Origin: an uncultured Eubacteriales bacterium
GTDB lineage: Bacteria; Bacillota; Clostridia; Oscillospirales; Oscillospiraceae
Reading direction: 5' to 3'
Assembly: GCA_900549405.1 (NCBI GenBank)
Contig: URNZ01000007.1
Location: 4,702-68,701, forward strand
Length of the DNA stretch: 64,000 bases
Position numbers and translations under genes: made by a program. Position 1 is the first letter of the stretch. Each line of letters opens with the position of its first letter. A model generated the notes under the pieces. That model saw only the letters and a program-made list of their open reading frames with translations, made no database searches and was not told the origin of the DNA. Positions 1-4,222 of the stretch are shown here, one piece after another.

Positions 1-513
1 ATCATGACGGCCATGGAGGGCTATACCCAGCCGGGGGAGGAGATCGCCGTGATCGCCGTGGTCACCGACCTGGCGGCGGGGCACCGGAACCTGGAGCTGT
101 TCCGCCGCGAGGTGGAGGAGCTGTGTCGGCGCAAGGGGCTTGTCTGCCCCGGGGTGCAGGTGGTCACGGTGCCGGAGGATGACCGGGTGGCCACCCACAC
201 GGCCACGTTCCAGAAGCTGCTGAACTATGCCGCCGACGGGGACGAGCTGTTCTCCTGCATGACCTATGGCACCAAGCCCATGTCCACCGCCCTGATGATG
301 GCGGTGCAGTATGCCTATCGGGTGAAGAAGCAGACCACCATCTCCTGCATCGTCTATGGCCAGATCCAGCGCCCGGAGCGGGACAGGAGCACCTGGACGG
401 GCCGGGTGTATGACATGACGGCCCTGGTGCAGCTGGACGAGATCGTGCGGATGCTGGCCGACCGGGGCGTGGAAGACCCCAAGGCGGTCATCGACAGCGT
501 GCTGGCCTTGTAA
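1..513 (+). CDS. CARF-like domain protein, 5' end cut by window edge
   Basis: The reading frame is open to the left edge, so the N-terminus is unknown; the first ATG in view is at 4. The visible part alternates strands and helices like a Rossmann-type CARF domain: a hydrophobic first strand (EEIAVIAVVTDL), a second (VQVVTVP), then TYGTKPMS (262-285) followed by a helix and the strand TISCIVYG. The GTKPM segment resembles the GGTKxM motif of CARF proteins that bind cyclic oligoadenylates made by type III CRISPR complexes. No HEPN nuclease motif (RxxxxH) follows; the protein ends about 40 residues later, so this is a CARF with no C-terminal effector in view. It lies 14 nt before the sigma-like gene and upstream of cas6. 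The CARF call rests on motif and context only. Confidence 0.55.
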   Translation: MMTAMEGYTQPGEEIAVIAVVTDLAAGHRNLELFRREVEELCRRKGLVCPGVQVVTVPEDDRVATHTATFQKLLNYAADGDELFSCMTYGTKPMSTALMMAVQYAYRVKKQTTISCIVYGQIQRPERDRSTWTGRVYDMTALVQLDEIVRMLADRGVEDPKAVIDSVLAL

Positions 514-527
514 GGGAGGACGGACCC

Positions 528-1382
528 ATGAAAAAGCAGTATGCCTGGGACCAGGTGGACCGGCTGGCGGAGGAGTGGTACGCCACCCCAGCCGGGGAGG
601 AGCACGCGGCCATAAAGCAGAAGCTGCTGGAGGAGTTTCTGGGCCTGTCGTGCGATCTGCTCAGCGAGTCCATGATGGAGGGCCTGGGGGACTTTTGGGA
701 GCAGGACTTCCAGCGCTTTGACCCCGCCCTGTCCCCCTTCTCCAAATTTTTGCTCAGCCGCCTGAAGCTGCGGGTGCGGGACGGGGTCCGGGAGGACCTG
801 GGCCTGCGGCGGGTGAAGCGGGACGGGGAGACGGTCACGGAGGGGGCTTTCTCCCTGGACGACACCGGGGGGAAGGACGCAGATGATGACATGACCCGCG
901 AGGTCCGGGACCCCAGGGCGGAGGAGGCCCTGGAGGAGCTCTTCCTGGACGAGCGGGCCTATGAGTGCCTGTCCCTGATGCTGGACCTGCCCAACAAGCT
1001 CCAGGGCAAGGCCAACAACCCGGATAAGATCAACTATTACCGCATGTTCTTCACCGACGGCGTGACCGACTATGTCCGCTCCAGCGGCGGCCAGGTGTTC
1101 TTCGCCCACGAGGCCGACCTGTTCCAGGCCGCCAAGCTGCCCTTCCTGGACTTTTTCCTGGACCGGGTCTGCCGGACCGTCCCCCGCCTGGCCAGCAGCG
1201 AGACCAGGCCCTATGGCCAGCTGGTGGAGGGCCGCCCGGACAAGCCCGTGGAGCAGCCCCTGCCCCAGGACGTGTACCGCAGCTATCTGGCCCGGGAGGA
1301 GGGGCGCAGGGCGGGCCTGTCCGCCATCTCCCAGCAGCGGACGGCCTATCGGGCCTTTTTAAAGAGGATGCTGCAATGCTGA
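528..1382 (+). CDS. Sigma-70-like protein in CRISPR operon
   Basis: 284 residues, ATG preceded by AGGGAGGA. Function unproven. Residues 55-85 read like sigma-70 region 2.1-2.2: an acidic/aromatic helix, then FDP (64-66) and PFSKFLLSRLK (70-80), comparable to the FDPxxGxFSTYLxxRIR pattern. A SLDD segment at 109-112, followed by an acidic stretch, resembles the linker that often starts VSLDE in sigma factors. The C-terminus (about 262-282, GLSAISQQRTAYRAFLKRML) looks like the second helix of a region-4-type helix-turn-helix. The middle (about 150-230, rich in F, Y and D) matches nothing I recognise. Its stop overlaps the cas6 start, so the two are translationally coupled. Alternative: a diverged phage- or mobile-element regulator. 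Sigma resemblance is by eye. Confidence 0.5.
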   Translation: MKKQYAWDQVDRLAEEWYATPAGEEHAAIKQKLLEEFLGLSCDLLSESMMEGLGDFWEQDFQRFDPALSPFSKFLLSRLKLRVRDGVREDLGLRRVKRDGETVTEGAFSLDDTGGKDADDDMTREVRDPRAEEALEELFLDERAYECLSLMLDLPNKLQGKANNPDKINYYRMFFTDGVTDYVRSSGGQVFFAHEADLFQAAKLPFLDFFLDRVCRTVPRLASSETRPYGQLVEGRPDKPVEQPLPQDVYRSYLAREEGRRAGLSAISQQRTAYRAFLKRMLQC

Positions 1383-2122
1383 CCCGCTATCAGTTGATCC
1401 TGGAGCCGGACCGGCCCTGTGCCATCGGCCCGGAGTGGGGCTATCGCCTGTATGCCGCCCTGCTCTCCCAGACGCCGGAGGGCTTTGGCGCGGCGCTGCA
1501 CCAGAACGCCGTCACCCCCCTGAGCCAGTTCGTCTGGGCGGAGAAGACCGGCGCCCTGCACTGGACGGTGAGCCTGCTGGGGGAGATCAGCGAGGAGATC
1601 TTGTCCCCCCTGCTGGAGGGCGTCCCATCCCTGTATCTGGAGCGGGACCGGGTGGAGCTGCGCGTCACCGCCATCCGGTCAGACTGGGTCCACGACGTGG
1701 ACGAGCTGTTCGCCCGGGCCGCCCGGCAGGAGGGCCGCCACGCCCTGCGCTTTCAGACCCCCACCGCCTTTAAGAGCCGGGGGCAGTATGTGAATCTGCC
1801 GACGACACGGCTCCTGATGCAGAGCCTGGTGCAGAAGTGGAACGGCAGCTTTTTGGACTGCCCCATCGAGGACGAGGACGGCCTGGGGGTGGAGACCCTG
1901 GCGGCGGGGCTGCGGTGGCGCGGCTTTCAGCTCAGGGACCAGAGCTATCGCCTGAAGGGCAGCGCCATCCCCGGTTTTGTGGGCCGGACGGTGGTGGAAA
2001 ACCGCCTGTCCGGCTTCCACCGCCAGCTGGCCGACGCCCTGCTGCTCTTCTCCGGCTATTCCGGCGTGGGCATCAAGACCGCCCTGGGCATGGGCGGCGT
2101 GATCCACAGCGCCCAACCTTAA
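1376..2122 (+). CDS. cas6: CRISPR pre-crRNA endoribonuclease Cas6
   Basis: 248 residues, within the usual Cas6 range. Cas6 cuts pre-crRNA inside each repeat, leaving an 8-nt 5' handle. The C-terminal glycine-rich loop SGYSGVGIKTALGMGG is the family signature. H42 within ALHQNAVTPLSQF sits where many Cas6 proteins carry the catalytic histidine. The ATG overlaps the upstream stop (ATGCTGA) and has GAGG ahead of it. The gene is followed by a strong bidirectional terminator and then by the array, which is read towards cas6. No cas1, cas2 or effector gene is in view on this side; they may lie to the left or elsewhere in the genome. Confidence 0.9.
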   Translation: MLTRYQLILEPDRPCAIGPEWGYRLYAALLSQTPEGFGAALHQNAVTPLSQFVWAEKTGALHWTVSLLGEISEEILSPLLEGVPSLYLERDRVELRVTAIRSDWVHDVDELFARAARQEGRHALRFQTPTAFKSRGQYVNLPTTRLLMQSLVQKWNGSFLDCPIEDEDGLGVETLAAGLRWRGFQLRDQSYRLKGSAIPGFVGRTVVENRLSGFHRQLADALLLFSGYSGVGIKTALGMGGVIHSAQP

Positions 2123-2234: not shown

Positions 2235-2284
2235 TTGTCTCCCCCCGTGGGGGAGCTGTCACGGCGGAGCCGTGACTGAGAGGG
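2235..2284. repeat. Dispersed palindromic element, family B
   Basis: Two adjoining palindromes, CTCCCCCCGTGGGGGAG and TCACGGCGGAGCCGTGA, ending ACTGAGAGGG. A related mosaic lies at 58421-58547. Its last bases run into the first CRISPR repeat (from 2281), replacing that repeat's outer end. Confidence 0.65.
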
Positions 2285-2578
2285 CCGTCCCCGTAAGGGG
2301 CATAGGCTGCGTCCATCACCTTCGTGGATATCAAGCGCAGCTTGACGTTTCCGTCCCCGTAAGGGGTATAGATTGCATCCTGCAACCACTGCGTCAACCA
2401 CTACGGCATCGAGTTTTCGTCCCCGTGAGGGGTATGAGCTGCGTCCGCGCAGATGTTCTACAACCTCCTACTGGACAAGTTACCGTCCCCGTAAGGGGCA
2501 TAGACTGCATCTTGTGCTATATCTGTACGATAAGTACGGAAAAAAGTTTCCGTCCCCGTAAGGGGCATAGACTGCATC
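2281..2578 (-). CRISPR. CRISPR array, 5 repeats and 4 spacers, read on minus strand
   Basis: 33-nt repeats at 2281-2313, 2347-2379, 2413-2445, 2479-2511 and 2546-2578; spacers of 33, 33, 33 and 34 nt. Core: CCGTCCCCGTAAGGGGCATA with a CCCC-GTAA-GGGG hairpin. Read on the minus strand each repeat ends GGGGACGGAAAC, so Cas6 cutting would leave the handle ACGGAAAC, similar to type III/I handles of the form AxxGAAAC. The repeats at 2479 and 2546 are closest to each other; those at 2413 and 2281 are the most changed. Decay away from the right-hand side therefore agrees with a leader on the right and transcription on minus. Confidence 0.93.
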
Positions 2579-3121: not shown

Positions 3122-3778
3122 ATGGACGACAGGAAAGACAAGAACGAAAACGAAGAAAACGAGAGCGATTTCTGGAGCGACGCCCTGGATGACATCATGC
3201 GGCGGAGAGCGTGGAAGGAGTGGCTGGGAGAGATGTTTGACATGGTCATGTGCGTGATGATTGCCGCAGGCTTCACCGTGGCGCTGACGCGGGTGTTCTT
3301 CTGCATCTCCATTGTCAGTGGACGATCCATGGAACCCACCCTGCAAAACCGGGACCTGGTGGTGCTCCAGCGGGTGGGCCGCCACACGGACTATGGCGAC
3401 ATCGTGGCCTGCAAGGACCGGCAGGGGGAGCTGCTGATCAAGCGGGTCATCGGCCTGGAGGGGGACGTCATTCAGATCGACGGGCCCAACGGCGTGGTTT
3501 ACCGCAACGGCCAGCCCCTGGACGAGCCTTACATCGTCGCCGACAGCTACTACACCGGCGACGAGGAGGGTCCCATCACGGTGGAGGAGGGCTGCGTCTT
3601 CGTCCTGGGGGACAACCGCCCCAACAGCGCAGACAGCCGCCGCGACTACGTCGGCCAGATCCGGGAGAAGGACGTCAAAGGGGAGCTGCTCTTCCGCCTG
3701 GGCAATCTGTCCGGCCTGGAAAAGGACATCCGCCGCCTGCAATTCAAGGCTCGCCGCATGTTCAGCGGGCAGTTTTAA
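3122..3778 (+). CDS. lepB: Signal peptidase I
   Basis: 218 residues. Membrane-anchored serine protease that removes signal peptides from exported proteins on the outer face of the membrane. An acidic cytoplasmic N-terminus is followed by one transmembrane helix (about 39-62). The catalytic serine is S69 in SGRSMEPTL, the general-base lysine is K107 in LLIKRVIGLEGD, and the late conserved box is GDNRPNSADSR. Start: GGAGG 8 nt before the ATG. The gene stands alone between the CRISPR region and mazF, with a G+C-rich hairpin 25 nt after its stop. The long charged N-terminus before the helix is common in Clostridia type I peptidases. Confidence 0.95.
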   Translation: MDDRKDKNENEENESDFWSDALDDIMRRRAWKEWLGEMFDMVMCVMIAAGFTVALTRVFFCISIVSGRSMEPTLQNRDLVVLQRVGRHTDYGDIVACKDRQGELLIKRVIGLEGDVIQIDGPNGVVYRNGQPLDEPYIVADSYYTGDEEGPITVEEGCVFVLGDNRPNSADSRRDYVGQIREKDVKGELLFRLGNLSGLEKDIRRLQFKARRMFSGQF

Positions 3779-3803
3779 AGAAACACAAGAGAGCGCATAT
3801 TTC

Positions 3804-3824
3804 CCCGCCCCCGCTGGGGGCGGG
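3804..3824. other. G+C-rich hairpin between lepB and mazF
   Basis: CCCGCCCCC, 3-nt loop, GGGGGCGGG. No T-run follows, so it is a weak terminator at best. Comparable hairpins occur near 22122 and 45945. Confidence 0.5.
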
Positions 3825-3853
3825 AACGAGAAAAAACATAGGAGGAATACATA

Positions 3854-4222
3854 ATGAAGACCAATCAGACCACCGAGAAGAAGCTGAAGAAGGTCCTGCG
3901 GGGCGAGATCTACTACGCCGACCTGCCCGCGGAGAGCTGCGGCGCGGAGCTGCGGGGGATGCACCCCGTCCTCATCGTGCAGAACGACGTGGGCAACCGC
4001 TTCTCCACCACCACCATCGTCCTGCCCATCACCACTGACCGCCGCACGAAAAAGCCCATGCCTACCCACGTTTATATAGGCTGCTTGGAGCACGAGTCCA
4101 TCGTCCTGGCCGAACAAATGCGCGTCATCGACAAAGCCCGCCTGCACAGCTGGCTGGCCAGCATCGATGACAAGACCCAGGAGCAGGTAGACCGCGCCAT
4201 CAAGATCAGCCTGGCGGTATAA
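3854..4222 (+). CDS. MazF/PemK family endoribonuclease toxin
   Basis: 122 residues, close to NdoA/MazF length plus an N-terminal charged extension of about 12 residues. MazF toxins cleave single-stranded mRNA at short motifs. Family features: RGEIYYADLP near the N-terminus (usual motif RGDIYxADL), the PVLIVQND strand with GNRFSTTTIVLPIT, and TTDRRTKKPMPTHV ahead of the EHESIVLAEQMRVIDKARL core. RBS AGGAGG 8 nt before the ATG. No MazE/antitoxin-like frame lies just upstream; the preceding gene is lepB. It may be an orphan, or its antitoxin may lie elsewhere, as in Clostridia that carry the alr-linked EndoA pair. Confidence 0.9.
   Translation: MKTNQTTEKKLKKVLRGEIYYADLPAESCGAELRGMHPVLIVQNDVGNRFSTTTIVLPITTDRRTKKPMPTHVYIGCLEHESIVLAEQMRVIDKARLHSWLASIDDKTQEQVDRAIKISLAV

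Follow-up and report, generated by a model that had tools for sequence, protein, structure and literature searches.

A stand-alone CARF protein with a partner of sigma-70 ancestry: a candidate cyclic-oligoadenylate-gated switch of type III-D CRISPR operons

Analysis of a 64,000-nucleotide stretch of DNA from an uncultured Eubacteriales bacterium (the window), together with its relatives, revealed two adjacent genes that encode a stand-alone CARF protein and a protein of 284 amino acids, hereafter gene 2, which is very probably of sigma-70 ancestry, as traced through the sequences of its relatives. We moderately favour the interpretation that the two proteins form a two-part sigma switch, gated by cyclic oligoadenylate and operating without a protease, mainly in type III-D systems. 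The arrangement suggests a CRISPR alarm that switches gene expression directly, with no proteolytic step, and a new case among CRISPR-controlled sigma factors.

The pair lies at the left edge of the window, where three open reading frames on the + strand were found at 1-513, 528-1382 and 1376-2122, the packed unit that a sequence-only reading of this DNA had described; a gap of 14 nucleotides separates the CARF gene from gene 2, and gene 2 overlaps the third gene by 7 nucleotides (ATGCTGA). The window starts inside the CARF gene (1-513, +), so that the 5' end of this gene lies outside it, as would any cas10 that the source genome carries. Its 170 amino acids, open at the left edge, matched the PADLOC stand-alone family CARF2--CARF (PDLC01821) with an E-value of 1.5e-60 and could be aligned with 15 other CARF sequences, so that the profile search confirmed the CARF identity proposed earlier and the TYGTKPM motif was recovered around the GTKPM pointed out then. 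The match spans profile positions 39-202 of 203, indicating that about 36-38 N-terminal residues lie to the left of the window, and full-length relatives are 200-220 amino acids long (the L012 and L013 sequences being trimmed to the common start). Neither HEPN nor any other fused effector domain follows the CARF domain, a stop codon standing directly behind it in the window and in its relatives, also as anticipated. CARF domains of type III systems are sensors of cyclic oligoadenylate. In several loci a CARF-HEPN effector gene adjoins the CARF gene, and none was found in the 19.9 kb examined at L019, where both the CARF gene and gene 2 are present. The window CARF is thus a member of a family known to PADLOC, which lists no model for gene 2.

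The third gene (1376-2122, +) encodes the Cas6 crRNA-processing endoribonuclease (248 amino acids) that had been expected there, with matches to PF10040 (2.6e-17; 63.7 bits against a gathering cut-off of 25) and PADLOC Cas6_IIIa (2.8e-38), and with a score of 39.3 bits for NCBIfam TIGR01877, below its cut-off of 58.65. In the interval between cas6 and the array, a terminator-like inverted repeat with runs of A and T was read from the sequence at 2138-2180; a terminator scan detected part of it (2160-2174, +), with 2 sites in the region against a chance expectation of 1.3. A CRISPR array of five 33-nt repeats and four spacers of 33-34 nt at 2281-2578 (- strand) can be added to the gene set described earlier. 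Repeats of type III CRISPR arrays are known to end in GAAAC, and the reverse complement of the window repeat has GGAAAC at its 3' end, indicating that the array is probably transcribed from the minus strand and runs towards cas6; the same repeat type also adjoins cas6 in L002 and L013. Further along the window, a 122-aa open reading frame (3854-4222) looks like a MazF/PemK toxin by eye.

The 7-nt overlap between gene 2 and cas6 is common to six loci (the window, L001, L002, L011, L012 and L013), that is, six of the seven in which cas6 comes after gene 2. At these six loci the last codon of gene 2 is TGC, and the terminal cysteine may be imposed by the cas6 start codon. In P0042, a protein of 531 amino acids encoded on a single contig, gene 2 (99% identity across 77% of the query) is continuous in frame with a Cas6 domain; this may be either a genuine gene 2-Cas6 fusion or an assembly artefact.

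Gene 2 itself (528-1382, +) consists of a helical part resembling sigma region 2 (residues 1-93; 528-806, +), a segment resembling the finger of sigma region 3.2 (residues 109-128; 852-911, +), for which hhalign and MAFFT gave alignments with RpoD and SigI, and an all-helical C-terminal domain for which no relative was found (residues 139-284; 942-1382, +). The window protein gave no match at an E-value of 1 against Pfam, NCBIfam and PADLOC, did not reach PF04542 (sigma region 2), and gave none against the PDB by sequence. Its sigma relationship becomes visible through relatives. In a test of ten proteins, gene 2 of L011, L012, L013, L014 and L019 had E-values between 1.4e-5 and 5.9e-4 with models of SigI or RpoD, and P0043, the tenth protein, scored like L014; L020, L010, L001 and P0028 had no sigma match or only one above 0.01. 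The five relatives reached 19-25 bits, and the scores of the test as a whole, 12-25 bits, are far below the curated cut-offs of 185-498: the best against the SigI model TIGR02895 was 21.4 bits for L012 (cut-off 185), and the best relative against PF04542, L019, had 17.7 bits, below the gathering score of 24. Among the 28 gene 2 members of set A1, one matched Sigma70_r2 at 0.063, and in other members non-sigma models did equally well or better (MsyB 0.0011, AvrBs2 0.0099). The window protein is connected to the matching relatives by a full-length alignment with L011 (6e-33), and its N-terminal half alone reaches L011 only via L002.

The gene 2 family was also compared as a profile. With A2, a profile of 26 rows built solely from gene 2 proteins, hhalign returned P-values of 3.3e-6, 2e-5, 4e-5 and 3.7e-4 against four sets collected from the same genomes by PF04542 or TIGR02895 search, which we take to be RpoD, SigI, sporulation-type and ECF-type sigma factors, respectively, and six cas families used as decoys gave 0.27-0.7. 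The alignment of A2 with RpoD extends from region 2 through the finger. The best independent evidence comes from the reverse direction: A2 searched over 86 genomes found three true gene 2 proteins plus weak single matches (8.5e-7 to 1e-3), and all 17 of the weak matches that were fetched share 74-85% identity with RpoD from L022. The outcome depends on six bridging rows (L011-L014, L019 and L020); after their removal, no sigma factor was found among 2318 open reading frames, and hhalign gave P-values of 0.0009-0.024, with decoys at 0.18-0.85. Foldseek on gene 2 had no match at an E-value of 0.001, and the predicted structure lends weak support to the region 2-like part and the finger. The second protein had thus been related correctly to sigma factors, in that region 2 and the 3.2 finger with its SLDD are recognisable in the gene 2 family by way of relatives; the terminal HTH-like helix claimed in the same reading was not confirmed, as no significant profile match to region 4 was obtained in the C-terminal part. 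This C-terminal domain has a confident predicted fold, with invariant positions in common. SigI is the best curated sigma match for the relatives and is alike in region 2 and finger, but the C-terminal part of gene 2 is without a match to it.

A protein search with gene 2 returned 40 homologues, several of which are fragments or chimaeras, and when 84,980 species genomes were scanned, gene 2 was located at two loci, both in Oscillospiraceae assemblies. Whole-genome searches found it in 7 of 400 genomes from the family of G001, in 4 of 394 from the order (two of them new), in 1 of 391 from the class (G001 itself) and, as strong matches, in 3 of 86 from the genus (two new), giving 11 genomes in addition to the window. 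The CARF gene stands directly upstream of gene 2 in all 11 and in the window (12/12 loci), which bears out the co-occurrence expected from the window; the gap is 9-16 nucleotides in nine of the loci, the other three having an unsettled start codon. Linkage to cas genes was also seen elsewhere, since in eight of the 11 genomes the pair sits inside a contiguous type III-D operon (cas10d, csx10/cas5, csx19, cas7); none of the outcomes that would have spoken against the earlier reading was obtained. In L002 the locus is complete and reads Cas10d, Csx10/Cas5, Cas7, Csx19, long Cas7, CARF-HEPN, CARF, gene 2 and Cas6, followed by the array; the operon of G248 (L011), counted among the eight, has broken cas10 and cas7 genes.

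Cas10 was found in 10 of the 11 gene 2 genomes, on the contig of the pair in nine. In G386 (L014), Cas10d lies on the same contig apart from the pair and on the opposite strand, in G587 (L020) Cas10 lies on a different contig, and in G016 (L010) two models gave no Cas10 match although the pair is present. In seven loci including the window the pair is placed before cas6; in L127 it follows cas6 and CARF-HEPN, in L128 it precedes cas10, and cas6 does not adjoin it in L010, L014, L020, L127 and L128. This varying place indicates that the CARF-gene 2 pair is an accessory module of type III-D operons and not a fixed operon part. In the sample of 400 genomes from the family, gene 2 occurs in seven, Cas10d in 14 (13 of them clear) and both in six, a co-occurrence with a hypergeometric probability of 4e-9 that is not corrected for kinship; seven of the 13 clear Cas10d genomes are without gene 2. 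At such loci the long cas7 runs directly into cas6 (L067) or the contig ends (L068); the pair is also absent at the Cas10d locus L066, and a complete or partial CARF gene stands close to cas10 in L069, L070, L071 and L072. G295 was rejected as a type III-D genome, its Cas10d match being weak (1.1e-4) and no type III-D operon being seen. Other genes near the pair include a reverse transcriptase-Cas1 fusion and Csx20 in L014 (2-1852 and 6280-6714), and an Argonaute-like 496-aa open reading frame (PADLOC pAgo 1.7e-17) and a recombinase (NCBIfam XisF 7.9e-43) in L010 (5623-7113 and 7502-9004), whose genome is the one lacking a Cas10 match.

Gene 2 diverges more than its neighbours. In comparisons among nine type III-D loci, with one pair excluded for sharing fewer than three families, conservation was lowest in gene 2 for 34 of 35 locus pairs, and the CARF protein was mostly well conserved; between L002 and L013, for instance, identity is 75% for CARF, 71% for Cas6 and 30% for gene 2. 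For the gene 2 copies of L011 (11461-12282) and L012 (10902-11723), dS reaches 1.50, a value close to saturation, compared with 0.23-0.55 in five other genes, and the dN/dS of gene 2 in this one pair is 0.16. Gene 2 is therefore under constraint as judged from codon substitutions, and fast evolution was set aside as the cause of its divergence, at least in this pair, because the difference in dS between L011 and L012 fits recombination better. It looks as if a constrained gene 2 has been exchanged by recombination within a similar operon, at least between these two loci.

The CARF family was also searched in 280 genomes. Seven had a match at 1e-12, of which the four strongest (G001, G016, G093 and G248) carry gene 2 and the seventh is G228, with a partner of no clear affiliation. 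In G024 (L145:7131-11443) and G255 (L146:7685-12064) a distant CARF gene precedes a sigma-like gene for 292-293 amino acids. The partner in G024 matched sigma region 4.2 (hhalign P 1.1e-5) and region 3 (P 4.3e-4), and that in G255 matched the gene 2 profile (P 7.9e-5) and the sigma sets weakly (P 0.006-0.40). The genes next after the partner are vWA-, PP2C- and protein kinase-like by eye; the 18 kb examined showed no cas gene of type III-D, and the model used found no Cas10 in either genome. L146 further on has open reading frames of 1094 and 737 amino acids and coiled-coil-looking ones, which recall CoCoNuT operons as these are described in the literature. Among the Cas10d loci, the CARF gene of L072 is followed by a 486-aa protein whose C-terminal domain is shared with gene 2 (hhalign P 2.9e-7; hmmsearch E 0.0015). 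The CARF partners of L069 (323 aa; NCBIfam SigBFG 0.086, best hhalign P 0.038, with RpoD) and L070 (413 aa; NCBIfam ArpU 0.059, with a decoy reaching P 0.029) are sigma-like by eye but gave no convincing match and were not counted. Beside cas10 in L071, a 169-aa open reading frame (3437-3946) has the look of a CARF start fused to a gene-2-like tail (P 0.011) and is perhaps a deletion remnant.

The usual palm motif of Cas10 is GGDD, and [A/D]GDD, with both palm aspartates, was kept in all seven copies examined (L001, L002, L012, L013, L019, L128 and L073), so that by their sequence cyclase activity is likely for the Cas10 proteins of gene 2 genomes. We propose that a Cas10 complex meeting its target RNA would make cyclic oligoadenylate, and that binding of this ligand by a dimer of the stand-alone CARF protein would alter its grip on the sigma-like protein. 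That the sigma-like partner is co-encoded with CARF suggests such an anti-sigma-like, ligand-altered hold, and in the simplest case ligand-bound CARF would free its partner in the fashion of an anti-sigma factor. The freed protein would then dock on RNA polymerase via region 2 and the finger, with the C-terminal domain replacing region 4 either in promoter choice or in docking on the CARF protein. A protease would not be required: PADLOC listed no SAVED-Lon protease among the nine operon genes of L002, and with no protease seen in that operon direct allostery is the simplest mechanism. In this scheme, ligand binding, contact between CARF and gene 2, the way in which control runs, the docking on polymerase and the existence of target genes are all predicted. 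A fuller version can be advanced tentatively, at somewhat short of even confidence: CARF binds and controls the sigma factor directly, without proteolysis, as a reversible transcription switch responding to cyclic oligoadenylate, and the CARF-sigma pair is mobile, its sigma part being swapped between similar type III-D operons and its distant versions heading predicted vWA/PP2C/kinase operons in genomes that gave no Cas10 match.

Known systems offer partial parallels. PMC11417357 describes CalpL/CalpT/CalpS of type III CRISPR as a SAVED-Lon protease sensor, an anti-sigma factor and an ECF sigma factor, which likewise joins a cyclic-oligoadenylate sensor to a sigma factor in a type III context. 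By contrast, its SAVED-Lon cuts a separate anti-sigma factor, whereas the window sensor is a bare CARF and gene 2 differs by its unrecognised C-terminal domain. In the Csx29/Csx30/CASP-sigma system of type III-E, according to PMC10028731, a target-RNA-activated protease cuts the inhibitor Csx30, and CASP-sigma strongly resembles ECF sigma factors; the shared feature is a sigma factor under CRISPR control, whereas the pair here belongs to type III-D, has a CARF, shows no protease and carries a far weaker sigma signal. L002 carries cas10 and individual cas7 genes, the latter matched only weakly by the models for the type III-E Cas7-11 (gRAMP) (8e-11 and 1e-15), and PADLOC did not list Csx29 in it. 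CARF sensing is also tied to transcription in Csa3, a CARF with a winged HTH, and RtcR, where CARF acts via sigma-54, both single polypeptides according to PMC4012209; here two genes are involved, and it is to sigma-70 that the partner traces its ancestry. A literature search of incomplete coverage, which also drew on PMC11229360, PMC12409355, PMC12830947 and PMC11090510, brought up no account of a CARF-sigma-70 pair.

The unrecognisable region 4 raises the possibility that gene 2 is a toxic effector which, freed or activated by CARF, occupies core RNA polymerase through region 2, lacks a functional region 4 and halts host and phage transcription, leading to dormancy. Type III effectors are typically damaging and non-specific as portrayed in the literature, and the excess divergence of gene 2 over its neighbours in nearly all locus pairs would agree with such a role. 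However, a C-terminal domain with a confident fold and invariant positions argues for a conserved function, a region 4.2 HTH seems to persist in the partner of the L145 CARF, and both known CRISPR sigma factors act as transcription factors; we consider this explanation unlikely. We give still less credence to the idea that CARF ends the signal as a ring nuclease or as a sink for the ligand, with gene 2 a neighbour doing a separate job. Stand-alone ring nucleases with a CARF fold are known, and the CARF-HEPN protein encoded beside CARF in several loci would need turning off; but the adjacency of CARF and gene 2 is unbroken over the 12 loci, including L010, L014 and L020 outside a contiguous type III-D operon, and also holds in L019, where no CARF-HEPN was seen.

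Finally, gene 2 could be a sigma descendant that has left RNA polymerase to serve as an adaptor linking CARF to Cas6, to the Cas10 complex or to another partner. That the window protein shows its sigma relationship so weakly, and that the overlap with cas6 recurs, would fit, yet the parts that have been kept, region 2 and the finger, are those facing the polymerase, and cas6 is not beside the pair in five loci; we consider such an adaptor improbable.

If the sigma-switch interpretation is true, control would be simpler than that of CalpS and CASP-sigma, which proteases set free, and would be reversible. The C-terminal domain of gene 2, having no recognised relative, may represent a new mode of promoter choice or of docking on a CARF dimer, and the pair is small enough, at two genes, to be testable in E. 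coli. An antiviral second messenger would then be a direct regulator of RNA polymerase.
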